Shown in pieces: positions 15,349 to 58,166 of a stretch of 64,000 bases of DNA; positions within the stretch are counted from its first letter, which is position 1, and each line of letters begins with the position of its first letter. The stretch is from contig CM060977.1 of NCBI GenBank assembly GCA_030765065.1, forward strand, positions 131,568,295-131,632,294. Reading direction: 5' to 3'. Position numbers and translations under genes: made by a program. The notes under the pieces were generated by a model that was not told the DNA's origin, did not search any database, and saw only the letters and a program-made list of their open reading frames with translations. This stretch comes from Deroplatys truncata (Eukaryota; Arthropoda; Insecta; Mantodea; Mantidae).

Positions 15349-16197
15349 TTTTTACTTTCTCTACTACGTAGAGTAAGTAGGGGAAGTATTGTATTCTACC
15401 AAAAAATTCGATACCGAGATTTCACCTGAAATACATGTTTTGAGACCCCCTGAATCCCAAAAAAGAATTTTTGGAAACATGTCCGTGGTGTGTCTGTGTG
15501 TGTGTGTCTGTCTGTCTGTCTGTCTGTGAACAGCATAACTCAGAAACAAACAGTCGGAGAAACACCAAACTTGGTATTTAGGATCAGCATCTTCCAGAGA
15601 TGCGACACGGTTTTCAAGAAAATTCCCCTACCCCAGATTACCCTTTACATGGAACATTTTTCGATAATTTTAATTTTCTCAAAAATGGCTCTAAAGATTT
15701 TGATCAAAATATCATATGTTTAAGATATTTTCATGACAAATGAAATGTATATCTCGAATTTTCTGGGAATGTCTCCAAAGGTATTCTTCATTGTGAACGA
15801 CTTTTGCATAACTGGTAAAACATAAGAGATAGACAAAATTTTACTACACAAAAATGTAGATCGCGTTAAAATACACAATTTATGTCATATACATTTTTTT
15901 GTTGTTGGGTGAACCATTTTCGAGATATTGCTTGTTATTCCGTTAGATTTTCCAATACTTATACTTTTTCTCAAATTCGTTATTCATTTTTTTTGGTCAT
16001 GGTAATCCAAAGAGAATGGAATACTCGACATAGCAACCAGCTGTTAAAATATTTCATATCGCTTGCATCTACAAGAAAATTAGCAATAAGATTAACATTT
16101 CGATATCTCGATTAACATGAAGCATATGGAGAATAAGCGCTTGCAAAAATAGTTTGTACGAGAGTAGAGAAATTCATGTGAGTGTAACACATCAGAT
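15349..16197 (+). mobile_element. Family-A repeat A1 (Helentron-like non-autonomous element)
   Basis: It starts TTTTTACTTTCTCTACTACG and ends AGTGTAACACATCAGA before a T run. Near the left is a GT/CTGT microsatellite at 15487-15526, between ATGTCCGT and GAACAGCATAACTC, the fixed position for the family. ACTTTCTCTAC at the left end is repeated inverted about 20 bp inside the right end. No coding capacity; the short frames are shared noise. Confidence 0.8.
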
Positions 16198-17039
16198 TTT
16201 TTCTTATTTTTAACTAAATCTGTATGGCGTCAATGACGCTGATCGATTTAAATAAAAAAGGCGAAGATTTATCATGGAATTCCTCCCACAAACCGACTAA
16301 TATCGGAAACAGTTCGTTACTTACCTATATTATTTTCTCAAAAATGACTAACCACTTTGTTTAAAGTATCATGTGTTTGGAATAATTAATAAACAAACAT
16401 GTCTTTAACTGTCTGTAAAAAGGCGGTACCAACTTCTTCATTCTTGCTGCATTTTATATAACCAGTAAGCCACAAAAGACAGACAAAAATTAATATAGGA
16501 AAATGTTATTATACTTAAAATATGCAATTTATGAATAATTTGTAAATACTTTGTGAATTAGCTGTTTCCAAAACTTTACCTGTTGTATGATTGACTTTTA
16601 TACTGTTTTTGTCAGTGTACTTTTAGAAGTTGCGTCTGTTTTTTCTTATTTCTTAGCTGGTGGCCGGCATTTATTGGACTTCTTTTATTAACAGCTGATC
16701 ATTGTCTCAGCCTCGTGTAAAGTGTTTGTTACCGATATTATCTAAATCAGGCATGCCGTTTTGCAACACTCGGGGTCATCCCCCATTCTCCCTCCAACTC
16801 CGTGTGTTGGGAATGATCAGACTTCACGGCGACACGGCTATTGGAATAGAAGCTCCTTGGATGGTAAGCAAAGCGAGGAACATAACAAAGGGATGGGTTA
16901 AATTCGTGTCCCCTCGGGGGCAAACCTGATTCAAATGAAACTTTTATTTATATAAACATGCACTTATCGTAATTATAAAGTGAACAGAAAAACATAGATT
17001 TATATAAACAGCCCATGGAATCACCATGACATTTATTAC
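16198..17039. other. Unassigned spacer
   Basis: No terminal repeats, RNA genes or coding region recognised. A somewhat GC-richer patch lies at 16730-16930. Confidence 0.45.
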
Positions 17040-17050
17040 GGGTAGAGAAA

Positions 17051-17551
17051 GCAAAGGTACATATTACGGAAGGAGGCCACCAAAACCGGGCCAGAGCACT
17101 GCAAATAGGCCACAAGGGTCCTTTTTGTTCCTAATGTGGTCGCTGGGAGGGAACGATGAGGGGAGAGACCTGAAGTGCAACCAGAATCGGGATGACGGCG
17201 GGCGCAAGCATGGACAGGTTCCCTCACGTTTCCAGATAGAAGACATCCAACGCCGCCCGACCCTACCCACGAAGCCCTAACTCCCGGCGGTCCCCCTTAT
17301 GGGGTCCACTTCGGAGGCGGATCCTGACACCAGGAAAGAAATCTCTACAAAGTGCAAATCGAGCGCGCTGTCCATTCTGAAACAGATACAATAAAGGAGA
17401 TGATGGGTACAGGAAAGTCGTGGGAGAAGAGGAACCTCCCAGCATTCGCCTGCCGACCCGAGGAAATCACGAAAACCTATGGATCAGATCGAACCCGGGG
17501 CCTTCTGAATGCGAGTTACACACGTTACCGCGGCGCTACCTCGGTCGGTAT
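17051..17551 (-). mobile_element. SINE E2 (tRNA-headed), 11-bp target duplication
   Basis: Flanked by GGGTAGAGAAA at 17040-17050 and 17552-17562. The minus strand begins ACCGACCGAGGTAGCGCCG and has the B box GGGTTCGATC. Its body aligns with E1 and includes a GGAGATGATGGGTACAGGAAA-type segment, plus about 50 bp that E1 lacks near 17430-17480. Not coding. Confidence 0.82.
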
Positions 17552-17562
17552 GGGTAGAGAAA

Positions 17563-18894: not shown

Positions 18895-18963
18895 ATCTAA
18901 AATTTATCTACTAACAGATCTATCGCGATATGACCATGTAGTTAAAGCGACTACAGTAAATAG

Positions 18964-18966
<3 letters not shown>

Positions 18967-18998: not shown

Positions 18999-18999
<1 letters not shown>

Positions 19000-19556: not shown

Positions 19557-19935
19557 ATTAGTTGTTCTTCCACACACTCCGTGTGTCGCACAAGGTTGGA
19601 AAGGTTCAATCAAATGACTGAAAAATTCAATGTCGTAGCTGGGATTTGAACCATGGTCTCCGTCGGTTGATCTAATAGTGGTTGAAACTATGAAGCCTGG
19701 AACTTAAAGTACATACAACATTGTAAGTCGCCATTGGGGTATGTCATCTCAATACAATTTGAGATCTCCTTGTGGTTTACCGGGAAAATACGAATCAGTC
19801 ATGCTTGCATGTTGCCATGGTAGTTCAGTGGTTAGAGCAACCGGGCGAAGATCGGGAGTTCCGTGGCTCAAATCCCGGCTATGGAATTGATTTTTTCAGT
19901 AATCTGATTCTAGCTATCCAATACTAATTAAAGTT
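19557..19935. repeat. G1: inverted pair of tRNA-like SINE heads
   Basis: The left arm has a minus-strand B box (GGTTCAAATCCCAGC at about 19638-19652). The right arm has a plus-strand tRNA-like head (A box TGGTAGTTCAGTGGTTAGAG, B box GGCTCAAATCCCGGC). The outer flanks are also inverted: CCTTTCCAACC-like with CAGT..ATTTGATT on the left mirrors TTTTTCAGTAATCTGATTC and TATCCAAT on the right. A second copy with the same layout is at 47915-48240, so this is a repeat family and not a chance pairing. Confidence 0.6.
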
Positions 19936-20196: not shown

Positions 20197-20722
20197 CAGA
20201 GTGAGCCAAAAGACTCCGATGCCAAAAATATATGGACAACGACGGTGGCCAGTTTCAGCATCTCCTTTCATAAAGTTGGTAAGTAAAGTCTTTAAAAGTA
20301 GCTTTAAAAATGTATGGTTTTATCCGCGCCTTTCTATGATAGCAGCAGACGGCAACGAGCGCCGAGGACGCGGACAGGAAAAACACCGCGGAGGCGTTTC
20401 GGAGTCTTTTAAATTGAGTTTTATTTATGGACGCTCTTTAACTACTATGGTTCTTAGCGTCCCATTCTATATTGGGCGTGAAACACCTGTAATTTTGCTC
20501 AGAGGCCTCTTTATCAGGCTTGAGGTTCTTTTACGTGCCGTAAATCTACGACACGGGACCACCGGCTTTACTTCCCTTCCTAAGGAAGCGTGCCAACGAT
20601 TTTTACGCCCGAAAAAATCCATCGCCCTCCGCCGGGTTTGAACCCGCGACCTTGGGAACTAGAGGCTAGCACGGTACCACTAGTCCACGGAGGACGACGA
20701 CGGAGTCTTTTGGCTCACTCTG
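20197..20722. mobile_element. TIR MITE (TA-flanked) interrupted by SINE S2
   Basis: The ends are perfect inverted repeats: CAGAGTGAGCCAAAAGACTC at the left and its complement at the right. TA lies at both borders (20195-20196 and 20723-20724), and the flanking ctac/gtag extends the match. Without the SINE the element is about 225 bp. TA duplication and a CAGAGTG start fit the mariner-superfamily elements elsewhere in this window, such as 27602, which starts CAGAGTGTATC. Non-coding. Confidence 0.75.
20411..20700 (-). mobile_element. SINE S2, nearly full length, 11-bp target duplication
   Basis: Flanked by CGGAGTCTTTT at 20400-20410 and 20701-20711. The minus strand begins with a tRNA-like head: GTCGTCCTCCGTGGACTAGT, with A box TGGACTAGTGGT and B box GGGTTCAAACCCGGC. 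The body and AATAAAACTCAATTTAA tail follow. It gives the best full-length model of family S, about 290 bp. The right-hand duplicate doubles as the MITE's terminal repeat. Confidence 0.85.
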
Positions 20723-21485: not shown

Positions 21486-22370
21486 TTTTTACTTTCTCTA
21501 CTACGTATAGTAAGTAGGGAAGTATTGTATTCCACTCAAAAATTCGATACGAGATTTCACTGGAAATATATGTTTTGAGACCCCCTGAATCCAAAAAGCA
21601 ATTTTGGAAACATGTCCGTGTGTGCGTCTGTGTGTGTCAGTGTGTCTGTAAACAGCATAACTCAGAAATCAAAAGTCGGATAAACACCAAACTTGGTATT
21701 TAGGTTCAGTATCTTCCAGAGATGCGACACGAAGGTTTTCAAGAAAATCCTCCCACCCCATATTACCCTTTACATGGAACATTTTTCGAAAATGTTAATT
21801 TTCTCAAAAATGGCTCTAACGATTTTGAATAAAGTATCATATATTTAAGATATTTTAATGACAAATAAAATGGTTATCTTGAATTTTTTGGGAATGTCTC
21901 CAAAGGTATTCTTCATTGTGAACGACTTTTGCATAACTGGTAAACCATAAGAGATAGACAAAATTTTACTATACAAAAAAATGTAGATCGCGTTAAAATA
22001 CACAATTTATGTCATATACATTTATTTTGTTGAGTGAACCATTTTCGAGATATTGCTTGTTATTCCCTTACATTTTCCAATACTTATACTTTTTCTCAAA
22101 TGGGAATTCGTTATTCATTTTTTTTATTTTTATTATTATTTTTTGTTTTTCCCTGGTAATACAAAGAGAATGGAATACTGCACACAGCAACCAGATCTTA
22201 AAATATTTAATTATTGCTTAAAGCCTACCAATTCCCCTGGCATCTACAAGAAAATTAGCAATAAGATTAACATCTCGATATCTCGATTAACATTAGGCAT
22301 ATGGAGAATAAGCGTTTGTAAAAATAGTTTGTACAAGAGTAGAGAAAGTCATGTGAGTGTAACACATCAA
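21486..22370 (+). mobile_element. Family-A repeat A2
   Basis: Starts TTTTTACTTTCTCTACTACG and ends AGTGTAACACATCA. The GT microsatellite is short here (about 21618-21648). It lies inside the Tigger relic near its right end and is therefore younger. Confidence 0.8.
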
Positions 22371-22418
22371 AAATTGTTTAAATAAAGTAAAACTTGTGCC
22401 AACTTGTCCTCCCCTACA

Positions 22419-23938: not shown

Positions 23939-23949
23939 CAATTTGAGGA

Positions 23950-24246
23950 AATTGAAATTAAACTGAGTTTTATTTATGGACGCTCTTTAACTGCTGTGGT
24001 CCTTAGCGTCCCATTCCATATTGGGCTTGAAAGACCGGAAATTTTGCTCAGAGACATTTTTATCAGACTTGAGGTTCTTTTACATGCCGTAAATCTACGG
24101 GACCACCGGCTTTACTTCCCTTCCGAAGGAAGCCATGCTAAGTATTTTTACGCCCGAAAAAATCCATCGCCCTCCGCCGGGTTTGAACCCGCGACCTTGG
24201 GAATTAAGAAGCTAGCATGGTAACCACTACACCACAGAGGACGACA
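23950..24246 (-). mobile_element. SINE S3, nearly full length, 11-bp target duplication
   Basis: Flanked by CAATTTGAGGA at 23939-23949 and 24247-24257. The minus strand begins GTGTCGTCCTCTGTGGTGTA, with B box GGGTTCAAACCCGGC, and ends in the AATAAAACTCAG tail. The head is tRNA-like with a clear A box (TGTAGTGGTTACC). Confidence 0.85.
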
Positions 24247-26675: not shown

Positions 26676-27455
26676 ATCTGATGTGTTACACTCACATGAC
26701 TTTCTCTACTCTTGTAAAACTATTTTTACAAACGCTTATTCTCCATATGCTTCATATTAATCGAGATATCCAGATGTTAATCTTATTGCTAATTTTCTTG
26801 TAGATGCAAGGGGAATTGGTAAGCTTTAAGCGATAGTCAAATGTTTGAAGAGCTGGTTGCTATGTGGAGTATAGGTATTGGAAAATTTAAGGGAATAACA
26901 AGCAATATCTCGAAAATGGTTCACTCGACAAAAAAATGTATGACATAAATGGTGTATTTTAACGCGATCTACATTTTTTGTGTAGCAAAATTCTGTCTAT
27001 CTCTTATGGTTTACGAGTAATGCAAAACCTCGTTCACAATGAAGAATACTTTTGGAGACATACCCAGAAAATTCGAGATATGCAGTTCATTTGCCACAAA
27101 AATGTCTTAAATTTATGGTATTTTATTCAAAATCGTAGAGAGCCATTTTTGAGAAATTTAAAATTTTCGAAAAATGTTCCATGTAAACGGTAAACTGGGG
27201 TGGGGGAATTTCTTGAAAACCTTCGTGTCGCATCTCTGGAAGATACTAAACCTAAATACCAAGTTTGGTGTTTATGCGACTGTTCGTTTCTGAGTTATGC
27301 TGTTCACAGACACACACACGGACATGTTTCCAGAAATGCTTTATATGCATTCAGTGCACCCCAAAACATGTATTTCCTGTGAAATCTCGGTATCGAATTT
27401 TTGGGTGGAATGCAATACTTCCCCTACTTACTATACGTAGTAGAGAAAGTAAAAA
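26676..27455 (-). mobile_element. Family-A repeat A3
   Basis: On the plus strand it begins AATCTGATGTGTTACACTCA and ends TACGTAGTAGAGAAAGTAAA. The AC/GT microsatellite is short (about 27308-27322). It carries a shortened middle compared with A9. The RLFVSELCCS frame here is the recurrent antisense shadow of the family. Confidence 0.8.
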
Positions 27456-27952
27456 TGTGTGTTTACAAATTAATATTTTGTTAGTCTTCTAAAGAAAATT
27501 ATTACTATTAAAGATAAGTATATAACCTACTATTTTGACAATGACATTTATAGATTTTTGTGCAGCCTTATTAGATGTATTTTCCTCTTGAATCTAATAT
27601 ACAGAGTGTATCATAATTAATAGTGCAAACTGAAACGGTTGAAAGTATACGATAATAGAAGCAAAAACGTTCCAGTAAACATGGGACCGCAAACGAGTCA
27701 TGTGCGAGATAATTACAAATGTGTAATTACAAACCGCTACTGACTTCATTAAGCAACATCTTGCTAATTAGTACACATGGATTTGAAAAGTAGACTTCGT
27801 TAATTCTAATTTGTCTCAAAATTCACTCAAAGCATAAGTTAACAAGGAATACGATTCTACTTTAGTATGTTAAATGTTATTAACACTGTACACTCTTACT
27901 ATTCAAGGAGGTGTTCAAAGTGTCGTCCTTGCATCTGGATTCAATACTGCAC

Positions 27953-28300
27953 TTAGTTTCGAATTCTTCCAAACATTCCCGGGTCATCTCGGAATTCTTG
28001 ACAACCACGTACAATTCTCTGCTGGAGTACTTCAACTGTATCAACGGAAGTGCTATACACTGCAGTTTTGAGATGACACCATACAGAAAAATCCAAAGGA
28101 TTCAGATCAGGTGATCGTGGAGGCCAAGGTACAGACCCTCCTCGACCTATCCGCCTTGGAGCGTATCTCCACCGTAGATGTCTTCTTACAGTAGTAGCAA
28201 AATGTGCCGGTGCTTCATCATGCATGTACACATAGTTCGACGTTGTTCAAGGGAAACATCCTCAAGCAATTCACGTCATTGGCGTCTCATAACAACACAT
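27953..28300 (-). pseudogene. Transposase DDE domain fragment (mariner superfamily)
   Basis: The minus strand reads ELLEDVSLEQRR in one frame and then MYMHDEAPAHFATTVRRHL in the next. It continues RRIGRGGSVPWPPRSPDLNP, then LDFSVWCHLKTAVYSTSVDT. In this group HDGAPAHF carries the second catalytic aspartate (HDEAPAHF here keeps D), and SPDLNPLDFFLWG surrounds the third acidic residue (the D of LDF). The frame is open for 92 codons, so the C-terminal half is well kept. The first catalytic region and the DNA-binding domain are deleted, so the copy is inactive. Confidence 0.75.
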
Positions 28301-28354
28301 TCGCAATAATAAATCTCGCACACTACCTGCTTACGGATCCATCTTTACTGGAAC

Positions 28355-29299
28355 TTTTTACTTTCTCTACTACGTATAGGAAGTAGGGGAAGTATTGTAT
28401 TGCATCCAAAAATTCGATACCGAGATTTCGCCGAAAATACATGTTTTGGGACCCCCTGAATCCAAATAAAGCATTTTTGGAAACATGTCCGTGTGTGTGT
28501 GTCTTTGAACAGCATAACTCAGAAACGAACAGTCGGATAAACACCAAACTTGGTATGTAGGTTCAGTATCTTCCAGAGATGCGACACGAAGGTTTTCAAG
28601 AAAATCCCCCCACCCCAGATTACCCTTTACATGATATATTTTTCGAAAATTTTAATCTTCTCAAAAATGGCTCTAACGGTTTTGAATAAAATACCACAAG
28701 TTTAGGACATTTTTATGGCAAATAAAATGTATATCTCGAATGTTTTGGGAATGTCTCCTAAAGTATTCTTCATTGTGAATGACTTTTGCATAACTGGTAA
28801 AACCATAAGAGATAGACAAACTGTTACTACACAAAAAATGCAAATCGCGTTAAAATACACAATTTATGTAATATACATTTTTTTGTTGTTGAGTGAACCA
28901 TTTTCGAGATATTGCTTGTTATTCCCTTAAATTTTTTAATACTTATTTTCTCAAATGGGAATTCGTTATTCATTTTTTTGTCTTGGATATGCAAAGAGTA
29001 TTAATCTGTGGCAAAGAGAATGGTGTTGCACCTAGCAACCAGCTATTAAGATATCTGTCGATGCTTAAAGGCTACTTACTGTATTATTGCCCTTGCAATT
29101 ACAAATCATGGGGAACATAGTAGCGATATTAAGCGATATTCAAATATTTTTTAGAACTGTGTAAAACGTAATTGTCTTTGCAGGCCAAAAGATCGTTTCT
29201 GCAACTGTTTATCTCGATTAATATGAAATAGAGAATAAGAGTTTGTAAAAATAGTTTGTACAAGAGTAGAGAAAGTCATGTGAGTGTAACACAACAGAT
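28355..29299 (+). mobile_element. Family-A repeat A4, nested in a mariner-type element
   Basis: Starts TTTTTACTTTCTCTACTACG and ends AGTGTAACACAACAGAT, with a short GT tract at 28491-28502. The host sequence on both sides can be compared with the other terminal repeat of the host transposon. Left flank TTTACTGGAAC and right flank GATTTGTCTC join to the host order without a duplicated target. This is the clearest view of the family's integration junctions. Confidence 0.82.
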
Positions 29300-29426
29300 G
29301 ATTTGTCTCTATTATCGTATACTTTCAACAATTTCTGTTTGCGCTATTATTTATGATGCAACCTGTATATTTTATCATTATAGGCCACAATATTTTGCCA
29401 TTTTGTACCATTAATCTGTACCACTT

Positions 29427-30001
29427 TACAGAAAAAAATCTTATGTAATACATTCACATGACTTTCTCTACCACTTTCGTTTATTAATGGGTACATAAAT
29501 TATTCTTATTAAAGCTTATTTTTATTCTACCACATTTTAACCCAAATAAGCCTTTGTAGAAATAACTATATTACACATTTCGTTATATATTCAAATGTTT
29601 AAAAACTACACGCTATATGCTGGCCTTACTGTTTCCATGCAAACGCGAAAACAACTTAATGTTGACAGGATATTTAAGAGAAAGCCCAAGAAACGAACAA
29701 TGCGAACCTTTATTAACGGATATTTCAGAAATAATTTATGCCATATAAAGAATAGCTGGAGGTAAGTGATTTTCTTGAAATACTTCGTGTCGCATCTTTG
29801 GAAAGTATGAACCTAAATACCAAGTTTCGTAAACACACACACAGGCCCCACTACACACAACGGCCTTTTTCTAAAACGCTTTGTTTTGGATTCAGGGGAC
29901 CTCAAAATATATATTTCAGGTGAAATCTCGATATCGAATTCTTGGGTGAATTGCAATACGTTCTCTAGGTGTCGTGTAGTGTACAGAAAGTAAAAATCAT
30001 G
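29427..30001 (-). mobile_element. Family-B repeat B5, internally deleted
   Basis: The plus strand begins AAAATCTTATGTAATACATT and ends ACAGAAAGTAAAAAT. It has the B-specific TTTATTAATGGGTAC, ACTGTTTCCATGC and TTATTAACGGATAT blocks. The centre is shortened. The AC tract is at about 29829-29842. Confidence 0.7.
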
Positions 30002-30031
30002 ATTCCTGCACATTTAAAGATGAGAGGTATA

Positions 30032-31277
30032 CACTATGTGATCAAAAGTATCCGGACACCCCACAAACATACGTTTTTCATCTTACGTGCATTGTGCTGC
30101 CATATACTGCCTGGTACTCATTATCCGCGACCTCAGTAGTCATTAGACATCGTGAAACAGCAGAATGGGACGCTCCATGGAACTCACGGACTTCGAACTG
30201 GTCAGGTGATTGGGTGTCACTTGTGTCAGAAGTCTGTACGCGAGATTTCCGCATTCCTAAACATCCCTAGGTCCACTATTTCTGATGTGATAGTGAAGTG
30301 GAAATGTGAAGGGACATGTACAGCACAAAAGCGTACAGGCCGATCTCGTCTGTTGACTGACAGAGACCGCCGGCATTTGGAGAGGGTCGTAAAGAGTAAT
30401 AGGCAGACATCTATCCAGACCATCACACAGGAATTCCAAACTGCATCAGGATCCTCTCCAAGTACTATGACAGTTAGGCGTGAGGTGAGAAACCTTGGAT
30501 TCCATGGTCGAGCGGCTGCTCATAAGCCACACATCACGCAGGAAAATGCCAAACAACGCCTCGCTTGGTGTAAGGAGCGTCAACATTACACGATTGAACA
30601 GTGGCAAAACGTTGTGTGGAGTGAACGAATCACGGTACACAATGTGGCGATCCGAAGGCAGGGTGTGGGTATGGCGAATGCCCGGTGAACGTCATCTGCC
30701 AACGTGTGTAGTGCGAACAGTGAAATTCGGAGGTGGTGGTGTTATGGTGTGGTCGTGTTTTTCCTGGAGGTGGCTTGCACCCCTTGTTGTTACGCGTGGC
30801 ACGATCACAGTGCAGACCTACATTGATACTTGAAGCACCTTCTTGCTTCCCAGTGTTGAAGAGCAATTCGGTGATGGTGATTGCATCTTTCAACACGATC
30901 GAGCAGCTGTTCATACTCCACGGGTTGTGGCGGAGTGGTTACACGACAATAAAATCCCTGTAATGGACTGGCCTGCACAGAGTCCTGACTTGAATCCTAT
31001 AGAACACCTTTGGGATGTTTTGGAACGCCGACTTCGCGGCAGGCCTCACCGACCTACATCGATACCTCTCCTCAGTTCCGCAATCCGTGAAGAATGGGCT
31101 GTCATTCCCCAAGAAACCGTCCAGCACCTGATTGAAAGTATGCCTGCGAGAGTGAACGCTGTCATCAAGGCTAAGGGTGGGCCAACCTATATTGACTTCC
31201 AGCATTACCGATGGAGGTCGCCACGAACTTGTACGTCATTTTCAGCCAGGTATTCGGATACTTTTGATCACGTAGTG
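30032..31277 (+). mobile_element. Tc1-like transposon copy 1 (defective)
   Basis: The left end CACTATGTGATCAAAAGTAT matches the inverted right end (CACTACGTGATCAAAAGTAT). TA duplications lie at 30030-30031 and 31278-31279. Its 1246 bp align end to end with copy 2 (36858-38108). The transposase gene inside is broken. Confidence 0.9.
30165..31195 (+). pseudogene. Tc1-like transposase, frameshifted
   Basis: It aligns with the 36992-38089 gene but has four defects. A base is missing near 30195 (GAACTGGTC against GAACGTGGTC). A base is added near 30625, just before the first catalytic Asp codon. There is a TGA stop at 30831-30833, and a shift close to the C-terminus near 31180. Later motifs remain: FQHDRAAVH with the second Asp, and SPDLNPIEHLWDVLERRL with the Glu, 34 residues apart. 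The EHLWDV here is closer to the usual Tc1 motif than the EYLLDV of copy 2. The protein would cut and rejoin DNA at TA sites; this copy cannot. Confidence 0.88.
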
Positions 31278-31279
31278 TA

Positions 31280-33711: not shown

Positions 33712-34466
33712 TTAAAGCCCAACCATTGAAAGAAGACATATTCCTCCGCACAACGAAGCGCAAAAGTAGTATTTTTTTTAAAATTCGTTTAAATTTATTG
33801 CATAAAATATAAAAAAAATAAGGCCTAAGTTGTAACAAAACCTCTGAATAAGAAAATATCGTGTTTGGATTAAGAAGAATTGCTCAAAAATATATCTACA
33901 TAGCATAAAAATATGTAGAAAATGTAAAATCTAAAGCATTGATTTCTCAGTTGATAAAATACACATTTAGCATTGCTGAAATATCTGCCAACGTTTGGTA
34001 TATTATTATTAATATTGGAAAATTTCAAAGAGGGAGTTGATACTGCCAAACGGAGCTAGAAATCTTTCAACTGACATCAAAGAGAATGAAATGTTTCAAT
34101 TGTAAGGTTTTCAATAGTATACGTTTTCATTTATCTTTCCTAACGACTCTCTCCTTTCGCTAATAAACAGCTGCTGAATATGTGGTTTTTGCTTTTAGGT
34201 TTAATGAAATCCAGTTTTCCAACAGTGACCTTTGTCTCTGGCTCTTTAACTATTACAGCAGCCAAAAGCTTTCCAATATGTTACTAACTACTTTGTGACG
34301 AAATGTTTGGTTGCAATTGATTAAGTCTGCCTCTGGGCCACAACTTCACTAGAATGGTCAGTCACAGTCAAACAGGCAAAGTGTGTTTGGAAATTAATTC
34401 ATAGTTGTCAATCTGAAAATCCTTGTTACACGTACCAAAACAGCACAAAGTCCTCATGATGCTCTA
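33712..34466. other. AT-rich spacer, nothing recognised
   Basis: No gene, terminal repeat or SINE was identified. Confidence 0.5.
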
Positions 34467-35345
34467 CTGTTACTACCTTCTCTCCACGTACATAGTAGGT
34501 AGAGAAGGATTGCATTTTACCCAAAAATTCGATTCCGAGATTTCACTGTAACATATTTTGAGGTACCTGAACTCCCCCTTCAAAAAAATCTGATGTGTTG
34601 CAGTCACATGGCTTTCTCTACTCTTGTACAAACTATTTTTACAAGCGCTTATTCTCCATATGCTTCATGTCAATCGATATAAACATTTGCAGACTCTATC
34701 TCATTGCTAAGTTTCTTGTAGATGTAAGATGAATATATATTTACAAGGGCAACATAGAAAAACAGTAGCTTTTAAGCACATACATATCTCTTAATAGCTG
34801 GTTGCTAGGTGCAGCACTATTCCCTTTGCCACAGATTAATACTCTTTGCATATCCAAGACAAACAAATGAATAACGAATTCCCATTTGAGAAAATAAGTA
34901 TTGAACAATTTAAGGGAATAACAAGCAATATTTCGAAAATGGTTCACTCAACAAAAAAATGTATATGACATAAATTGTGTATTTTAACGCGCTCTACATT
35001 TTTTGTGTAGTAAAAGCTTGTCTATCTCTTATGGTTTACCAGTTATGCAAAAGTCGTTCACAATGAAGAATACTTTTGGAGACATTCCCAGAAAATTCAA
35101 GATATACATATTATTTGTCATAAAAATATCTTAAACATATGATATTTTAATCAAAATCGTTAGAGCCATTTTTGAGAAAATTAAAATTTTCGAAAAATGT
35201 TCCATGTAAAGGGTAATCTGGGGTAGGGGATTTTCTTGAAAACCTTCGGGTCGCATCTCTGGAAGATACTGAACCTAAATACCAAGTTTGGTGTTTATCC
35301 GACTGTTCGTTTCTGAGTTATGCTGTTCACAGACAGACAGACACA

Positions 35346-35381
<36 letters not shown>

Positions 35382-36274
35382 CATGTTTCCAAAAGTGCTT
35401 TTTTGGATTCAAGGGATCTCAAAACATGTATTTCCGGTGAAATCTCGGTATCGAATTTTTTAGTGGAATACAATACTTCCCCTACTTACTATACGTAGTA
35501 GAGAAAGTAAAAATTAGAAAAAAGGTTTGTGTGTGTGTGTGTGTGTGTCTGTCTTTGAACAGCTTAACTCAAAAACGAAAAGTGAGAAAAATACCAAATT
35601 TGGTATTTAAGTTCAGTATCTTCCAAAGATGCGACATGAAGATTTTCAAGAAAATTCCCCCCCAAACCACCCTTTACATGCAACATTTTTAGAAATACTT
35701 TATTTTCACAAAAACGGCCTTAACGATTTGATTAAAGTACCATATATTAAAGATATATACATAAATAAAATGTATATATTGAATTTTCTGGGAATAGCCT
35801 GTGAAGTCTTCTTCATTCGGAAGGAATTTGTATAATCTTGTATAACCAGTAAACGTTAAACGATAGACGAAAACGCATTACACAAAAAATGCATATAGAT
35901 CTCTTTAAATCGCACAATTTATTTCAAATAACTTTTAGTGGCAACAGCCATTCCCGAGATATCCGTTATTAATGCTTTGAATTTTTCAATTCTTTGTCAT
36001 TCTTTTCAAGTCTTGCCAACATTCAGTTGTTTCTCGCTTTGCATGGAAACAGTATGGAATTTTGAGGCCAGCATATAGCGTCTAGTTCTTATACATTTTG
36101 ACTATCGCTATTCCTTTTGCATTTATAACGAAATATGTAATGTAGCTACTTCTGCAAAAGTTTGTCTCTATTAAAACAAGTAGATAGCAAAATAAGCTTT
36201 CGTAAGAATAGTTTCTATACCCATTAATAAATGATATAGGGGTAGAGAAAGTTATGTGAATGTAAAACATCGGA
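34467..36274 (+). mobile_element. Family-B repeat B1, interrupted by A6
   Basis: The left part (34467-34587) runs from CTGTTACTACCTTCTCTCC through the ATTCGATTCCGAGATTTCAC block. The right part (35514-36274) resumes at TTAGAAAAAAGGTTTGTGTG, has a GT tract at 35527-35548, and ends GTGAATGTAAAACATCGGA. Together they follow the B order seen at 41301-42363. Landmarks are ACGATAGACGAAAACGCA, ACAGTATGGAATTTTGAGG and CCCATTAATAAATGATA. No coding capacity. Confidence 0.78.
34588..35513 (-). mobile_element. Family-A repeat A6, nested in B1
   Basis: The plus strand begins ATCTGATGTGTTGCAGTCAC and ends TAGAGAAAGTAAAAA. An (AC)n tract spans about 35337-35378 at the family's fixed position. The insertion point lies in the A/T homopolymer stretch of B1 between CTTCAAAAAA and TTAGAAAAAA. 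No duplicated target is evident beyond the homopolymer. Confidence 0.82.
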
Positions 36275-36855: not shown

Positions 36856-36857
36856 TA

Positions 36858-38108: not shown

Positions 38109-38110
38109 TA

Positions 38111-38702
38111 TAACGATTTTCTACCCCTTTCAGCGCCCAGCTAGCCCTGACCTTTCTTCATAGGGTAATTCTAGCATATCGAACTTCAGCTAAAACCAAT
38201 TAGAGGATGGATCACCTAAGGCGAGCGCGGAACACAAATTATGAGATTCTGCCAACATTCAAGAATGGAAAACAATAAAAGTAACCAAAAGCATTGGCAC
38301 GAGTTTTTGTGAGAGAGGTGCCTACTAGCTAGCTTATAAATTCCAATTTGCCCTTCCAATCTTCCTTTTACATATACTGTAATGACGTATATGCAATACC
38401 CATAATTTTATTGTAATTATGTTTACATACGAACATAAATGTAATTTCCATTAACAGATTGCTTTTCTGTTAGTTAATGAAACTGAATGAGTGCTAGCAA
38501 AAATGCCTAAACCAATTAAAAAAATTAATTACCAGCTTCGATCTACTACAGACTGCAATACATCCTGAGTTCAGCTAATCTGAAGGAAATCTGTGTTTCG
38601 AGATACACAAGTTGTACTTTTGTGACAATTTACTGAAAACACACTATTTACTTTTTATAGCAAAATCAGACTCACCTACAATAGATCGCATGCACTTGTA
38701 TG
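38111..38702. other. Unassigned spacer
   Basis: No recognised feature; mostly AT-rich. Confidence 0.45.
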
Positions 38703-40180: not shown

Positions 40181-41022
40181 TTTTTACTTTCTCTACTACG
40201 TATAGTAAGTAGGGGAAGTATTGCATTCCACCCAAAAAATCGATACCGAGATTTCACCGGAAATACATGTTTTGAGGTGAACTGAATGCATATAAAGATT
40301 TTTGGAAACATGTCCGTCTGTGTGTCTGTCTATGAACAGCATAACTCAGAAACGAACATTCGGATAAACACCAAACTTGGTATTTAGGTTCAGTATCTTC
40401 CAGAGATGCGACACGAACGTTTTCAAGAAAATCTCCCCACCCCAAATTACCTTTACTGGAACATTTTTCGAAAATTTTAATTTTCTCAAAAATGGCTCTA
40501 ACGATTTTGAATAAAATATCATAAGTTTAAGAAATTTTACAGCAAATGAAATGTATATCTCGAATTTTCTGGGAATGTCTCCAAAAGTATTCTTCATTGT
40601 GAACGACTTTTGCATAACTGGTAAACCATAAGAGATAGGCAAAATTTTACTACAGAAAAATGAAGATCGCGTAAAAATACACAATTTATGTCATATACAT
40701 TTTTCTGTTGAGTGAAATATTTTCGAGATATTACTTGTTATTCCCTTAAATTTTCCAATACTTGTAGTTTTTCTCAAATGGGAATTGGTTACTCTTTTTT
40801 TTGTCCTGGTATTGCAAAGAGAATGAAATACTCGACATATCAACCAGCTCTTAAAATATTTGACTATCGCTTAAAGCCTACCAATTCCCCTTGCATCTAC
40901 AAGAAAATTAGCAATAAGATTAACAACTCGATATCTCGATTAACATGAAGCATATGGAGAATAAGCGTTTGTAAAAATAGTTTTACAAGAGTCGAGAAAG
41001 TCATGTGAGTGTAACACATCAG
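40181..41022 (+). mobile_element. Family-A repeat A7
   Basis: Starts TTTTTACTTTCTCTACTACG and ends AGTGTAACACATCAG before a T run. The microsatellite position holds only a short GTCTGTGTGTCTGTCT. Confidence 0.82.
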
Positions 41023-41300
41023 TTTTTTTTTCAATAAATTCTTTGTTATATCCATTATTTCCCGAATTTTTGTATTTCTAATTTTATTTCTTCTTGAGAT
41101 TCGAGAAGCCCTTCGCGAAAAATTATCTCTGTTGTTAATAATGTTCTTTCTTGTTGCCTATTCATTGCCAAGTTTCTGCTTCATGGAGTAATACATTTGT
41201 ATTATTGAATTATAAATGAGCTTTTTAGTTTTACTTAAAATGTTTTTGCTCCATAATGTCGATATTAACATTCCAATTCTTTTTCTTCCTTCATTTGTTA

Positions 41301-42363
41301 TTTTTACTTACTCTACCATGTACCTAGCAGGTAGAGAGGTATCGATAACGAGTTTTCACCGGAAATACATGTTTTGAGGCACCATGAAAAAAAAAGAATT
41401 TTTAGAAAACGGTTTGTGTGTGTGTCTGTGAACAGCATTAACTCAAAAACGAAAAGTCGGATCAACACCAAACTTGATATTTAAGTTCAGTACCTTCCAA
41501 TATTGCGACACTAAGATTTTAAAGAAAATCCGTCTACCCCAATCTACCCTTTACATAGAACATTTTATGAAATTTTTTATTATCTGAAAGTGGCTCTGAC
41601 GATTTTTATTAAAATACTCCTATATTAAAGACATTTACACAAAAAATAAATTGTATATCTTGAATTTTTTGGAAATAGCCTTTGAAGTCCTTTTCATTCG
41701 GGGGAATTTTGTATAATACTTATAACTGGTAAACGTTAAGCGATAGACGAAAACGTACCACATAAAAAAATGTAGATGTCTTTAAAACACACAGTTTATT
41801 TAAAATAACTTTTTTGTAGCATCAGCCATTTCAGATATATCCGTTTTTACAGGTTAGAATGTCGTCCTCCCTGGACTAGTGGTACCGTGTTAGCCCGTGG
41901 TTTCCAAGGTCGCGGGTTCAAACCCGGCGGAGGGCGATGGATTTTTTTTCGGGCGTAAAAATCCTTAGCAAAATTACCAGTCTTTCACGCCCAATATAGA
42001 ATGGGACGCTAAGGACCATAGTAGTTAAAGAGCCTCCATAAATAAAACTCAATTTAATTTAAAGGTTTGAATTGTTCAATACTTAAGTCATTCTTTAAAA
42101 GTTCTGTTTCAGTTGTTTCTTACGATTCCATGGAAACAGTATGGAATTTTATGGTCAGCATATAGCGCCCAGTTCGTACTAAACATTTGACTGTCGCCGT
42201 TCGCTTTGTGTCTATAACGGAATGTGTAATGTAGCTATTCTGGAAAAGTTTATTTGGACTAAAGTGAAGTAGATATAATAATAAACTTTAGTAACACTAG
42301 TTTGTATACCCATTAATAAACGATAGAGAGTAGAGAGAGTCGTGTGAATGTAACAAATCAGAT
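41301..42363 (+). mobile_element. Family-B repeat B2, interrupted by SINE S4
   Basis: Starts TTTTTACTTACTCTACCATG and ends GTGAATGTAACAAATCAGA. It gives the most complete B sequence of the window: left hairpin region, GTTTGTGTGTGTGTC tract, GCGATAGACGAAAACG, ACAGTATGGAATTTTATGG and CCCATTAATAAACGATAG. Without the SINE it is about 850 bp. Confidence 0.8.
41861..42062 (+). mobile_element. SINE S4, internal deletion, 10-bp target duplication
   Basis: Flanked by AGGTTAGAAT (41851-41860) and AGGTTTGAAT (42063-42072). The tRNA-like head is intact (A box TGGACTAGTGGT, B box GGGTTCAAACCCGGC). About 90 bp of the body, from ATGGCTTCC to the CCTCTGAGC block, is missing; the tail CATAAATAAAACTCAATTTA is present. 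Confidence 0.83.
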
Positions 42364-42965: not shown

Positions 42966-43235
42966 AAAATGTCTTCCTCCATGGTGTTGTGGTTATCACG
43001 CTAGCCTCTAGTTCCCGAGGTTGCGGGTTCAAACCCCCTCAGCATGGCTTCCTTCGGAAGGGAAGTAAAGCCGGTGGTCCCGTGTCGTAGATTTATGGCA
43101 CGTAAAAGAACCTCAAGCGTAATAAAGAGGCCTCTGAGCAAAATTACCAGTCTTTCACGACCAATATAGAATGGGACGCTAAGGGCCGCAGCAGTTAAAG
43201 AGCGTCCATAAATAAAACTCAATTTAATTTAATTT
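42966..43235 (+). mobile_element. SINE S5, internal deletion, 7-bp target duplication
   Basis: Flanked by CAATTAA (42959-42965 and 43236-43242). Head: A-box-like TGGTGTTGTGGTTATCAC and B box GGGTTCAAACCC. A deletion joins the B box almost directly to CTCAGCATGGCTTCC. Tail AATAAAACTCAATTTAATTT. Confidence 0.78.
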
Positions 43236-43242
43236 CAATTAA

Positions 43243-45197: not shown

Positions 45198-46069
45198 TCT
45201 GATGTGTTACACTCGCATGACTTTCTCTACTCTTGTACAAACTATTTTTACAAACGCTTATTCTCCATATGCTTCATGTTAATCGAGATATCGATATGTC
45301 AATCTTATTGGTAATTTTCTTGTAGATGCAAAGGGAATTGGTAGGCTTTAAGCGATAGTCAAATATTTTAAGAGCTAGTTGTTATGTGGAGTATTTCATT
45401 CTCTTTGCATTACAAAAAAAAATGAATAACGAATTCCCGTTTGAGCAAAGGTGTAAGTATTGGAAAATTTAAGGGAATAACAAGAAATATCTCGAAAATG
45501 GTTCGCTCAAAAAAAAATGTACATGACATAAATTGTGTATTTTTTCGCGATTTGCATTTTTTATGCAGTAAAATTTTGTCTATCTCTTATGGTTTACCAG
45601 TTATGCAAAAGTCGTTCACAATGAAGAATACTTTTGGAGACATTCCCAGAAAATTCGAGATATACAATTCATTTGCCATAAAAATGTCTTAAAACTTATG
45701 GAATTCTATTCAAAATCGTTAGAGCCATTTTTGAGAAAATTAAAATTTTCGAAAAATGTTCCATGTAAAGGGTAATCTGGGGTGGGGGGATTTTCTTGAA
45801 AACCTTTCTGTCGCATCCTTGGAAGATACTGAACCCAAATACCAAGTTTGGTGTTTATCCGACTGTTCGTTTCTGAGTTATGCTGTTCACAGACACACAC
45901 ACAGATAGACACACACACACAGACACACACACGGACATGTTTCCAAAAACGCTTTTTTTTGGATTCAGGGGGTCTCAAAACATGTATTTCCGGTGAAATC
46001 TCTGTATCGAAATTTTGGGTGGAATACAATACTTCCCCTACTTACTATACGTAGTAGAGAAAGTAAAAA
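45198..46069 (-). mobile_element. Family-A repeat A8
   Basis: The plus strand begins ATCTGATGTGTTACACTCGC and ends GTAGTAGAGAAAGTAAAAA. An interrupted (AC)n tract lies at about 45892-45933. Flanked by an A run on the left. Confidence 0.83.
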
Positions 46070-48277: not shown

Positions 48278-48540
48278 TTCTTTTCTTATTTATAGACAAC
48301 TCTTTAACTGCTGTGGTCCTTAGCGTCCCATTCTATATTGGGCGTAAAAGACCGGTTATTTTGCTCAAAGACCTCTTTATCAGGCTTTAGGTTCTTTTTA
48401 CGTACCGTAAATCTACGACACGGGACCACCGGCTTTACTTCCCTTCCGAAGGAAACCATGTTAAGGATTTTTACGCCCGAAAAGAACCATCGCCCTCCGC
48501 CGAGTTTGAACCCGCGACTTCGGAAACTAGAAGCTAGCAG
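48278..48540 (-). mobile_element. SINE S6, 11-bp target duplication
   Basis: Flanked by ATTACATCTTA (48267-48277 and 48541-48551). The minus-strand B box is GGGTTCAAACTCGGC; the head is trimmed to CTGCTAGCTTCTAG. The body is complete through GACGCTAAGGACCACAG. Confidence 0.8.
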
Positions 48541-50965: not shown

Positions 50966-51669
50966 GTATGCAAATTATTCCTACGTAAATTTATTTTTCT
51001 GTTTACTTCATTTTAATAGAGATAAACATTTGCAGAAATAGCTATACAACCCATTTCGTTAGGGTACACGGGGAACAGCGATAGTTAAACGTTTAAAAAT
51101 GGTATATGCTGGTCCTAAAATCCCGAACTGTTTCCTTGCAATCGCGAGAAACAACTGAAAATCTTCGGGACTTATGAAGTATTCAACAAATCGAACCATT
51201 ATTAACGGATATCTAAGAAATGGCTGATACTACAAAAAGGTTATTTGAAATAAATTGTGTGTTTGAAAGAGGCTTACATTTTTTGTGTAGTGCGTTTTCG
51301 TCTATCGCTTAATGTTTACCAGTTATACAATATTATACAACATTCCTTCCGAATAAAGAGCACTTCACAGGCTATTTATAGAAAATTCAAAATGTACATT
51401 TTGTTTGTCATGTAAATATCTTTAGTGTTCTATAAAATAAAAAAAATGTCGAAAAATGTTTCATGTAAAGGGGAGTTTGGGGTTGGGGAATTTTCTTGAA
51501 ACTCTTCGTATCGCACCTTTGGAAGGTACTGAACCTAAATACCAAGTTTAGTGTTTATCCGAATTTTCGTTTCTGAGCTATACTGTACACACATAGCGCA
51601 CACAAGGACGTTTGTCTATTTTTTTTTTTTTTTTTTTTTTATTTTTTACCTTCAGGGGGCCACAAAATA

Positions 51670-52397: not shown

Positions 52398-52489
52398 TAT
52401 GTATTTCCGGTGAAATATCGGTATCGAATTTTGGGGTGGAATGCAATACCTTCTCTACCTACCAGGTACGTGGTAGAGAAAGTAAAAAA

Positions 52490-53823: not shown

Positions 53824-53956
53824 TTTTTACTTTCTCTACTACGTATAGTAAGTAGGGGAAGTAATGTATTCCACCCAAAAATTCGATACCGAGATTTCAC
53901 CGGAAATACATGTTTTGAGACCCCTGAATCCAAAACAAGCATTTTTGGAAGCATGC

Positions 53957-54009
<53 letters not shown>

Positions 54010-54746
54010 CAGCATAACTCAGAAACGAACAGTCGGATAAACACCTAACTTGGTATTTGGGTTCAGTATCTTCCAGAGATGCGACACGAAGGTTTTCAAG
54101 AAAATCCCCCCACCACATATTACCCTTTACATGGAACATTTTTCGAACATATTAATTTTCTCAAAAATGGCTCTAACGATTTTGATTAAAATATCATATG
54201 TTTAAGATATTTTCATGACAAATGAAATGTATATCTCGAATTTTCTGGGAATATCTCCAAAAGTATTCTTCATTGTGAACGACTTTTGCATAACTGGTAA
54301 ACCATAAGAGATAGACAAAATTTTACTACACAAAAATGTAGATCGCGTTAAAATAAAAAAAATTAATGTCATACATTTTTTTTTGTTGAGTGAACCATTT
54401 TCGAGATATTGCTTGTTATTCCCTTAAATTTTTCAATACTTTTTTCTCAAATGGGAATTCGTTATTCATTTTTTTGTCTTGGATATGCAAAGAGTATTAA
54501 TCTGTGGGAAAGGGAATGGTGCTGCACCTAGCAACCAGCTATTAAAAGATATGTGTGTGCTTAAAGGCTACTGTATTTCGAAATTGCCCTTGTAAATATA
54601 TATTCCCCTTACATCTACAAGAAAATTAGCAATAACATAGACTCTGCAAATGTTTATCTCGATTAACATGAAGTAGATGGAGAATAAGCGTTTGTATAAA
54701 TAGTTTGTACAAGAGTAGAGAAAGTCATGTGAGTGTAACACATCAA
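53824..54746 (+). mobile_element. Family-A repeat A9 with long (GT)n
   Basis: Starts TTTTTACTTTCTCTACTACG and ends AGTGTAACACATCA. The microsatellite reaches about 24 GT units (53959-54007), the longest in the window, at the family's fixed site. A partial second right end (54755-54980) follows immediately. Confidence 0.83.
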
Positions 54747-54754
54747 AAAATTGT

Positions 54755-54980
54755 TTTGTCCTGGACATACAAAGAGAATGGAATACTCCACATAGCAACC
54801 AGCTACTAAAATATTTGACTATCGCTTAAAGCCTACCAATTCCCCTTGCATCTACAAGAAAATTAGCAATAAGACTAACATCTCGATATCTCGATTAACA
54901 TGAAGCATATGGAGAATAATCGTTTGTAAAAATAGTTTGTACAAGAGTAGAGAAAGTCATGTGAGTGTAACAAATCAGAT
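54755..54980 (+). mobile_element. Partial family-A copy in tandem (right end only)
   Basis: Begins TTGTTTTGTCCTGGACATAC, an internal A-family sequence, and runs to GTGTAACAAATCAGATG. It repeats the last ~225 bp of the family directly after A9. Confidence 0.8.
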
Positions 54981-55355: not shown

Positions 55356-55697
55356 TTTTTACTTTCTCTACCGCATTTTAGAAAAAGCAGCTCCGTATGT
55401 GCGTGAACAGCGTAACTTAAAAACAGAAAAACAAAATGGATTTAAAGTGACTGCAGCAAGGGAATTTTCCAGAAAGTTTCTGCAATCCAAACAGGAAATA
55501 ATTTTAGAAATTTTTATTTTCTAAAAAATGCTCTAAAACTTTAATTAAAATGTCATATACATGAAAATTAAAATGTATATCTTGAATTTTCTGGGAATAG
55601 ACTGTGAAGTCCTTTTAATCCGGAAGGAATTTTGTATAATTCTGTGTAACAGGTAAACAATAAGAGATGGACAAAAGCTTACTACACAGGAAATGTA

Positions 55698-56901
55698 GAT
55701 CGCGAGTTCAAACCCGGGGGAGGGCGAAGGATTTTTTTCGGGTGTAAAAATCCTCAGCATGTCTTCCTTCGGAAGGTGAGGCAGTATTTTTAACACTTAA
55801 ATGATTTCAATCTAATTATATAATATATAAATTCAATAACAGCCCGCCTTAAAGCAATATGTGTATGTAACAATATATAAAAAGTGTATATTACAGTCAT
55901 TGTATATGTTTATATTATTGTATACATGTGTAATAATGTTATGTGAATGTATTACGTAATTTAATAATGTAAGAGCTGTGAGAAGTAGGTCAAAAGTTGC
56001 TAACAATGAGGTAACCTTGAGGCAAATAATGAATTTGAAAGTTTAACAATGCTACTTGTAATTCTTGGAAGCAATAATGTAATTTTTGTGACAGTTTATA
56101 AAATAGCCAATCAACAACCAGAAAAAGCTTTAGTTAAATGAAGGTATTCTATTGGACTAGGATTAGCCAATCAGAAACTAAAATGGAGCAAAATTTACAA
56201 ATTCAGAAGTCAGTTGCTTGTAGACAGCGTTCCTAACCCGACACAAGATGCGTCCTCGAGAAATTTAATACGTATTTTGTGTGAGACAAAAAATATTTAC
56301 GTGTTAAAAAGTGCAAGTAATTAATAAAAACATTTCACAGCTCTCTCTATATGTTATATAAATCGTGTCAAGCATTAATAATAGGAGTGAAGTAAAATTA
56401 TAATCTGTGTAAGCCTACATTCTTCAGTCGCACCACTCCCTGCTAAGACATTCATGTCTCTAAAAAAATAAATACTGACGCAGCCGAGGCAAACATAAAT
56501 ATATAATATTTAAAGAAACAGTCAAAATTACAAAGTTAATATTTTTTAAACATTTTTGGGGCAAAGGCCACCGGAAAGTACATTTAGGGCAAGGCTACTG
56601 GAAACTTTTTACCATATGTGCGGTTGTAACTATTTCAAGTTCGGCTCCCCAACAGTCGAAATATAATACATCTTCTCAAACTGGCTTTCCATACGTAGCA
56701 GCAACAAACCATCTTCTTCAAAGGGAAGTAAAGCCGGTGGTTCCGTGTCGTAGATTTATGGCACGTAAAACAACCTCAAGCCTGATAAAGAGGCCTCAGC
56801 AAAATTTCCGATCTTTCACGCCCAATATAGAATGGGACGCTAAGGACCACAGCAGTTAAAGAGCGTGCATAAATAAAACTCAATTTAATTTTTTTTTCCC
56901 T
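55698..56901 (+). mobile_element. SINE S8, split by C4, TSD GAAATGTA
   Basis: GAAATGTA flanks at 55690-55697 and 56902-56909. The copy is 5'-truncated to the B box (GCGAGTTCAAACCCGGG). Its two halves, ...CTTCCTTCGGAAGG and GGAAGTAAAGCCGGTGG..., join exactly to the S consensus when C4 and one AAGG are removed. Confidence 0.8.
55777..56720 (+). mobile_element. C4: solo-LTR-like repeat, TSD AAGG
   Basis: Begins TGAGGCAGTATTTTTAAC and ends CCATCTTCTTCA. Flanked by AAGG at 55773-55776 and 56721-56724. It is 944 bp long, and its exact removal restores the SINE, so these are the best-defined ends of the C family. TG/CA termini, a 4-bp duplication, an AATAAA-like signal and no coding region fit a solo LTR. 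The superfamily (Gypsy, BEL or other) cannot be settled without an internal region. Confidence 0.78.
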
Positions 56902-57007
56902 GAAATGTATATCTTTAAAACACACAGTTTATTACAAATACATTGTTGTACATCAGCAATTTCTGAGATATCGTTGTTATTGGTTTGAATTTTTCAATGC
57001 TTTGTCA

Positions 57008-57874
57008 TTTTTACTTTCTCTACTACGTATAGTAAGTAGGGGAAGTATTGCATTCCACCCAAAAATTCGATACCGAGATTTCACCGGAAATACATGTTTT
57101 GAGACCCACTGAATCCAAAAAAAGCATTTTTGGAAACATGTCCGTGTGTGTGTGTGTGTGTGTCTGTGTGTGTGTGTCTGTGAACAGCATAACTCAAAAA
57201 CGAACAGCCGGATAAACACCAAACTTGGTATTTAGGTTCAGTATCTTCCAGAGATGCGACACGAAGGTTTTCAAGAAAATCCCCCCACCCCAGACTACCC
57301 TTTACATGGAACATTTTTCGAAAATTTTAATTTTCTCAAAAATGGCTCTAACGATTTTGATGAAAATATCATATGTTTAAGATAATGTCATGAGAAATGA
57401 AATGTATATCTCGAATTTTCTGGGAATGTCTCCAAAAGTATTCTTCATTGTGAACGACTTTTGCATAACTGGTAAACCGTAAGAGATAGACAGAATTTTA
57501 CTACACAAAAAATTTAGATCGCGTTAAAATACACAACTTATGTCATATACATTTCTTTTGTTGAGTGAACCGTTTTCGAGATATTGCTTGTTATTTCCTT
57601 AAATATTTCAATACTTATACTTTTTCTCAAATTCGTTATTCATTTTTTTTATGTCCTGGACATGCAAACAGAATGAAATGCACCACATAGCAACCAGCGT
57701 TAAAATATTTGACTATCGCTTATAACCTACCATATTCCCCTTGCATCTACAAGAAAATTACCAATAAGATTGACATCTCGATATCTCGATTAACTTGAAG
57801 CATATGGAGAATAGGCGTTTGTAAAAATAGATTGTAAAAGAGTAGAGAAAGTCATGTGAGTGTAACACATCAGA
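57008..57874 (+). mobile_element. Family-A repeat A11, nested in B4
   Basis: Starts TTTTTACTTTCTCTACTACG and ends AGTGTAACACATCAGA. The GT tract spans about 57143-57180. It sits in the T run of B4 between CTTTGTCAT and AAAGTGCTG; other B copies read CATTCTTTTAAAG there. No duplicated target besides T residues. Confidence 0.83.
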
Positions 57875-58166
57875 TTTTTTTTAAAGTGCTGTTACTATTA
57901 GCTTGTTTCTCGCGATGTTATAGAAAGAGTATGGCATTTCAAAGTCAGCACATGGCGAGCGGCTGTTAAACATCAGACTATCGATTGGGTTTCTCCATCC
58001 TCCTGGTACCTGTAACGAAATGTATAATGAAACTATTTCTGTAAAAGTTTGTTTCGGTTAACATGAGGTAGATAGAAAAATAAATTTTCGTAACAATAGT
58101 TTATGTAAGTTATATAGAAATAAACGAAAGCGTGTAGAGAAATTCATGTCATGGTAACACATTAGA

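Follow-up and report, generated by a model that had tools for sequence, protein, structure and literature searches.

What are the two families of repeats, A and B, that recur in a 64,000-nucleotide stretch of the genome of the mantis Deroplatys truncata (GenBank assembly GCA_030765065.1, contig CM060977.1, forward-strand positions 131,568,295 to 131,632,294; hereafter, the window), and which enzymes move them? A sequence-only reading of this DNA had taken both families for rolling-circle elements of the Helentron type. Comparison within the window and with the rest of the host genome leaves us nearly certain that A and B are non-autonomous Helentron-associated interspersed elements (HINEs) of the DINE-1 kind, whose mobilisation in trans would be the work of autonomous Helentrons that the genome also holds. 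This assignment follows from the layout of the elements, from their insertion into T runs, and from the existence of elements that encode Rep, a PIF1 helicase and an endonuclease and carry matching ends.

Self-comparison of the window yields the ten copies of family A that had been expected, nine of them full and one represented by a 3' part; all ten are 91.8-95.7% identical to their 868-bp consensus, and differ pairwise by 5.1-19.3%. Family B is real as well, but the six copies that the sequence-only reading had placed within 15349..58166 become eight loci, two of which lie outside that span (Table 1): four have both ends, the 5' end being degraded in one case, and the other four are partial. 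A and B are about 73% identical across some 500 bp, and their ends are identical in kind. The motif ACTTTCTCTAC occurs 33 times in the window at no more than one mismatch, against a mean of 1.31 and a maximum of 5 in 100 shuffles, and CATGTGAGTGTAACACATCAGA occurs 12 times at no more than three mismatches, against none in shuffles. Nesting affects three of the A copies: copy 4 lies within an element that has inverted arms of 70 bp, and B elements contain copies 5 and 10. Of the stop-to-stop frames of at least 120 amino acids, none lies wholly inside A or B sequence; a 146-residue frame crosses the 5' end of A copy 8, where it reads the GT repeat. Copy 8 and copy 9, which belongs to another subfamily, stand with their 3' ends in tandem (53824-54979), possibly as the outcome of read-through or of truncation of a host copy, and the sequence to the left of copy 8 is not recognisably A. 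At two loci elsewhere in the genome (L006 and L007, in two similar stretches 8.4 kb apart on contig C10), very short derivatives of A have hardly any sequence between their two ends. The A core, searched as one pattern in each collection and for exact matches only, was not found in viral_contigs or genome_contigs.

Read from 5' to 3', the elements consist of ACTTTCTCTAC, its partner arm, a conserved block with a GT/CTGT-rich microsatellite, a long non-coding core, and a 3' side made up of GTAGAGAAAGT, 22 bp with a 5-bp stem and CATCAGA, and finally T. In both families the subterminal inverted repeats are near-terminal at the 5' end and internal at the 3' end, and their length is within the 11-15 bp of HINE/DINE-1 elements. 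Most of this layout had been described beforehand: an end motif with an inverted copy some 20-25 bp inside the other end (the inverse of ACTTTCTCTAC is found 22 bp inside the 3' end), a second motif following the inverted copy only there, as is indeed the case at the 3' end alone, and a GT microsatellite at a constant internal site, which occupies the same relative position in the copies read and varies in length. Two features of that description hold in part. The hairpin beside one subterminal repeat is strong on the 5' side, formed there by pairing of the repeat with the arm next to it (z of -3.93 for A and -4.07 for B, with none of 200 shuffles equal), but at the 3' end it is only a 5-bp stem, ATGTG...CACAT, seen in most A and B ends and in all 14 Helentrons sampled (see below). 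Similarly, T5 stands directly 5' of the element at 13 of the 13 window ends listed (the degraded B 5' end near 34474 being left out), but some copies outside the window have only TATT before ACTTTC at the 5' junction; such copies show that the left T5 does not belong invariably to the element, and the notion that it does was dropped.

The preference for T runs is evident at the 3' junctions. The first ten bases behind the 3' end contain 6.67 T on average, as against 3.10 at random places, and TTT lies within six bases of 11 of the 15 ends counted, as against 12%; two of the 15 were placed eight bases short and were nevertheless kept. Target duplication was examined in 24 A copies that have their two ends, nine of them from the window and fifteen from random pieces, the ends being paired by pattern at a distance of 700-1050 bp, so that degraded copies are left out, and one edge copy without a left flank dropping out. 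At lengths of 2-10, the left and right flanks show no clear excess likeness over shuffled pairs, the largest departure being +1.4 standard deviations at length 2; there is no target duplication beyond T content, a duplication of T alone being indistinguishable.

Paralogous empty sites tell the same story: the host sequence runs on beyond the inserted element, and T are added. For nested A copies, at least 26 matches were listed, all from A copies 4, 10 and 5 (3 of 30 queries). Copy 10 is flanked by 5 + 8 T, and the empty site in the related B copy of L009 has 7; two Helentrons inserted in A have 6 + 7 and 5 + 8 T, and one on the opposite strand of A has 6 + 6, versus 7 in the A consensus; the Helentron of L040/L046 has 5 + 9. 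A copy 4 fits its empty site less well, with a G missing at the left and a right side unlike the other arm, and A copy 5 in B gave no clean empty-site comparison. The nesting empty sites agree with insertion into T runs, T of the element and T of the target being indistinguishable there, an ambiguity that passages of PMC4067079 report as well.

These junctions bear on whether A and B could be miniature inverted-repeat transposable elements (MITEs) of a cut-and-paste transposon, as might be suspected from their inverted repeats and from a Tc1-type transposase frame in the window (36983-38089). The borders of that frame carry no A/B-type ends; no genome-wide search for a DDE element with such ends was made. 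A MITE origin was rejected, and strikes us as barely conceivable, because on the 3' side the inverted repeat lies inside the element and not at its tip, because the 24 paired A copies lack the fixed target duplication typical of MITEs, and because the elements that were found with these ends encode Rep, helicase and endonuclease.

The latter elements emerged when the host genome (4.29 Gb, 818 contigs) was searched for the Pfam domain Helitron_like_N. There were at least 152 matches, a lower bound obtained with 150 of 291 candidates scored; at least 18, among the matches listed, have open frames of 2,108-2,543 amino acids. One element, followed end to end from position 322 of locus L032 to position 9538 of locus L029, is about 10.4 kb long, and its protein, the only one annotated in full, comprises 2,324 residues with Helitron_like_N at 959-1150 (1.2e-27), PIF1 at 1614-1836 (1.9e-28), Pif1_2B and DUF6570. 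The helicase part also matches that of Helraiser (7lcc, 1.4e-22). The C-terminal 240 residues, searched alone, match Exo_endo_phos_2 at 1.8e-6 (28.3 bits, the curated cut-off being 27.4), and the endonuclease part carries GDFN and SDH motifs. The Rep motif, read in L029 and in a second locus, L030, is VEFQMRGSPHEH and of the Helentron type, with S between G and P (RGSPHEH); passages of PMC4067079 give this S in Rep motif 2 as a Helentron mark. The two loci, L029 and L030, have different flanks and share 99.5% identity over 9.4 kb. The L029 protein also has a Herpes_teg_N-like domain at its N-terminus (residues 67-212, positions 1827-2264 of L029; 1.2e-8), and 63-bp tandem repeats at 2541-3464, within the frame, encode charged repeats of 21 residues; several of the Rep frames differ in length by multiples of 21 amino acids (2261, 2324, 2345, 2387, 2408).

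The link between these Helentrons and the short families is provided by their ends, which were sampled at 14 of the 18 long-frame loci for the 3' side and at nine for the 5' side. All 14 of the 3' ends are GTAGAGAAAGTTATGTGAATGTAACACATCAGA followed by T, and the last 333 bp or so are 98.5-100% alike (141 bp in the case of L050); over the last 33 bases, Helentron and A agree at 31. All nine 5' regions carry A-type 5' ends, in two successive units: A 1-644 is 94.1% identical to the first, A 2-725 is 89.7% identical to the second, and the first 100 bp of A match the second in 99 of 101 columns. According to passages of PMC4067079, an identical subterminal repeat of at least 11 bp defines a family, and 80% identity over the last 60 bp a subfamily; by this rule, the compared sequences make A a member of the same family as the sampled Helentron, and of another subfamily. 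The last 60 bp of B, too, stay below the subfamily threshold in comparison with the sampled Helentron (44/66, 45/63 and 50/63 columns); membership of the HINE class does not depend on this threshold. With insertion in T runs and no clear target duplication, both foreseen by the sequence-only reading, and with the autonomous Rep-helicase/endonuclease partner that it had proposed to look for now found and matching at 14 of 14 3' ends and 9 of 9 5' regions, the Helentron-type class that it had assigned gains support.

Several observations weigh against this assignment. In a scan of the full-length L029 protein, the endonuclease appears only as Exo_endo_phos at 0.057, below the cut-off, and a PDB search with the C-terminal part matched no solved endonuclease by sequence. 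No RPA was recognised in L029, the one element examined: there is no frame longer than 76 amino acids behind the main frame and no RPA match within it. A second Helentron mark given in passages of PMC4067079, (F/Y)(w/l/y/k)R just before motif 2, is represented in L029 and L030 by YQR, of which the first and third residues fit and the second does not. The short 3' stem is no better than those of shuffled sequences (z of 0.22 and -0.53). In one of the 24 paired copies (L027 at 6056), a short stretch containing a base other than T recurs in both flanks; the four other copies in which the left side is not five pure T show no such repeat. Finally, the last 60 bp of A agree with the sampled Helentron in 45 of 65 aligned columns, below the 80% of the subfamily rule, and for the segment of A between about 740 and 835 no counterpart was found in L029. 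In view of the latter two differences, A is no plain deletion of the sampled Helentron, and the Helentron subfamily that moves A may be another one.

It is conceivable, accordingly, that A, and perhaps B, are moved by a different Helentron subfamily with a full A-type 3' end, the sampled 10.4-kb Helentron being only a relative; besides the divergent last 60 bp and the missing segment of A, more diverged groups are present in the Rep list. Yet the subterminal repeat and the last 33 bp are nearly identical between A and the Helentron, the first 100 bp of A match its second unit almost throughout, and the sampled Helentrons themselves begin with an A-type 5' end. In general, ends this short would be expected to suffice for Rep proteins. 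We consider a separate driving subfamily a serious possibility and still expect it to prove wrong.

A more distant driver was also considered, namely a canonical Helitron, given that the same genome holds a Rep locus of the Helitron type (L031, with RGLPHAH). However, L031, the only such locus fetched (9 kb), contains a single match to ACTTTCTCTAC, with one mismatch, followed by no A sequence and accompanied by no 3' end, and the 14 elements with matching 3' ends all come from the long-frame group, in two members of which the Helentron motif was read. On these grounds a canonical Helitron was rejected as a most improbable driver.

Returning to the HINE assignment, it is probably the intact, near-identical full-length Helentrons that move A and B, and the system is apparently recent, since the autonomous ends are 98.5-100% identical and the frames are open. 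Comparison of sequences, combined with what is known of the family, suggests the following cycle. The driver would be the Helentron of about 10.4 kb, with its single long protein comprising a rolling-circle Rep, a PIF1 helicase and an AP-type endonuclease. Rep would nick at the 5' end (ACTTTC...), the helicase would peel off one strand, the 3' stem together with CATCAGA would terminate this strand, and the freed strand would be joined into a T run on the matching strand. Family A appears to retain some 640-725 bp from the 5' part of the Helentron, together with a 3' end of matching type, and B would be its sister family with the same ends.

How much of the genome might be involved can be estimated from 20 pieces of 10 kb taken at round positions of five contigs (C2, C3, C6, C8 and C10). 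Matches to A at 80% identity or more cover 7.9% of this sampled DNA (bootstrap 4.8-11.5), and all A/B matches cover 19.8% (bootstrap 13.5-26.1) with microsatellites masked; a reversed library gave 0.04%. Before masking, five of the 20 pieces had no A at 80%, and four had no A/B match at all.

The Helentrons and their derivatives are also entangled with each other. In each of the nine sampled Helentron 5' regions, an A-type 5' unit is broken at a T run near A 644, and behind the break a second such end begins (for L039, the piece fetched does not reach the outer start and includes a further A-type 5' end). Such a stacked junction would result if a Helentron inserted in the T run of an A copy and subsequently transposed by way of that copy's 5' end; duplication in tandem within the element may be an alternative. 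On the other side, 7 of the 14 right flanks consist of A sequence that runs from this T run through the 3' half of a copy, starting at 641-642 in six, while the seventh, L042, has a diverged A copy first aligned at 659; the right flanks of L030 and L047 lie elsewhere in A, and that of L044 has a weaker A-like match (73%). The A halves flanking the seven Helentrons are 77.3-98.3% alike in pairs, and the Helentrons' own ends are 98.6-100% alike. Because the A halves diverge while the Helentron ends are near-identical, most of the seven seem to have inserted separately, into A copies that differ; L045 and L050, whose A halves are the most similar (98.3% alike), may have moved as one composite. 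Since the A-641 site accounts for just 17 of the 432 T runs of six or more in the 200 kb of sampled DNA, 7 hits in 14 are unlikely to reflect T-run choice alone: the probability is 3.9e-7, or 2.6e-5 if only runs of seven or more are counted, the seven insertions being treated as independent and the 14 loci having been chosen from long-frame matches, not at random. These patterns can be read as a Helentron that feeds on its own derivatives, inserting repeatedly at the T run at about 641 of A, with the 5' end of the intact lineage captured from an A copy, so that A would serve both as a set of landing sites and as a source of new ends and would let the system swell to about a fifth of the genome; on this proposal our judgement is evenly poised.

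In kind, these elements are known; it is the completeness of the system that is unusual. DINE-1-like elements are common in invertebrates, and their Helentron drivers were identified in 2014 (PMC4067079). As described in parts of PMC2374699 and PMC4067079, DINE-1/INE-1 of Drosophila share with A and B the subterminal inverted repeats, the partial inverted repeat beside the 5' one with a nested arm, a microsatellite (GTCY-type) in the 5' block, the lack of a coding frame, insertion into T runs and, in A and B only as a short putative stem, a hairpin after the 3' repeat. By the same partial accounts, the DINE-1 repeat is 13 bp long, whereas that of A and B has 11-12 bp and another sequence, the DINE-1 3' stem has 7-11 bp versus 5 bp here, and A and B differ in their high share of the sampled sequence. 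The HINE-Mo/Helentron-Mo pair of the mite Metaseiulus, as far as passages of PMC4067079 describe it, is similar in that non-autonomous elements share their ends with a Rep/helicase/endonuclease element and target T runs without duplication; Helentron-Mo, however, has an RPA frame, such as was not recognised in L029, and, on that description, it differs from the L029 protein with its Herpes_teg_N-like N-terminal domain and 21-residue repeats, as HINE-Mo differs from A, which is no plain deletion of the sampled Helentron. Abundant rolling-circle elements in large insect genomes are also on record for grasshoppers, where Helitrons make up 7-20% of the repeatome (passages of PMC7486953) or 17-22% of assemblies (passages of PMC7754599); in these two papers the elements are called Helitrons and the word 'Helentron' does not occur, whereas in the mantis both the class and the autonomous partner are resolved. 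Among the top-ranked papers on Helentrons in general, on Blattodea and orthopteroid insects and on nested or chimeric Helentrons, no such case was recognisable by title or beginning of the abstract, and a prior description is possible.

Besides A and B, the window contains other repeats. A dispersed SINE-like (short interspersed element-like) repeat, recognised by eye and bearing a tRNA-like box (GGTTCAAACCCG...), lies inside B twice and on its other strand has open frames such as SAGFEPATLG. Rfam gives one tRNA-like match, at 19814-19886, outside A and B, and ARAGORN found no tRNA in the window. There are two related Tc1-type transposons, at 36855-38111 and 30029-31280, the former retaining a 368-residue frame with HTH_Tnp_Tc3_2 and DDE_3. 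The element with 70-bp inverted arms that is split by A copy 4 (27596-29371) could, at a guess, be a transposon of the mariner/Tc type.

Table 1. Repeats of the window, in window coordinates
Feature	Position	Strand	Remarks
A copy 1	15349..16196	+	full length
A copy 2	21486..22371	+	full length
A copy 3	26677..27455	-	full length
A copy 4	28355..29298	+	in right arm of element with 70-bp inverted arms (27596-27665 / 29302-29371); left arm is the empty site
A copy 5	34589..35513	-	nested within B element
A copy 6	40181..41023	+	full length
A copy 7	45198..46069	-	full length
A copy 8	53824..54747	+	full length
A copy 9	54751..54979	+	3' part only, directly behind copy 8, from which it differs by 15.8%
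A copy 10	57008..57874	+	nested within B element; empty site from B copies
B fragments	3674..4111	.	two orientations
B fragment	5348..5590	+	3' part
B copy	29439..29996	-	both ends, short form
B copy	34464..36274	+	degraded 5' end; interrupted by A copy 5
B copy	41301..42362	+	both ends; contains SINE-like repeat
B internal part	50966..51634	-	without either end
B 5' end	52399..52488	-	5' end only, bearing strong 5' hairpin
B copy	55356..58166	+	interrupted by SINE-holding stretch (~55705-56902) and A copy 10
SINE-like repeat	12558-12807
SINE-like repeat	20409-20698
SINE-like repeat	23947-24246
SINE-like repeat	~41860-42063
SINE-like repeat	42970-43236
SINE-like repeat	48278-48539
SINE-like repeat	56720-56899
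SINE-like repeat	60195-60407

Self-nesting and end capture are the parts of this system that are worth following, and the co-occurrence of many non-autonomous copies with intact, near-identical autonomous ones in one 4.29-Gb genome makes the pair testable in cells. Should the share seen in the sample (13-26%) apply to the whole genome, Helentrons together with their derivatives would be a main component of the mantis genome, and the large 'Helitron' fractions of other big genomes may deserve to be rechecked for Helentrons.

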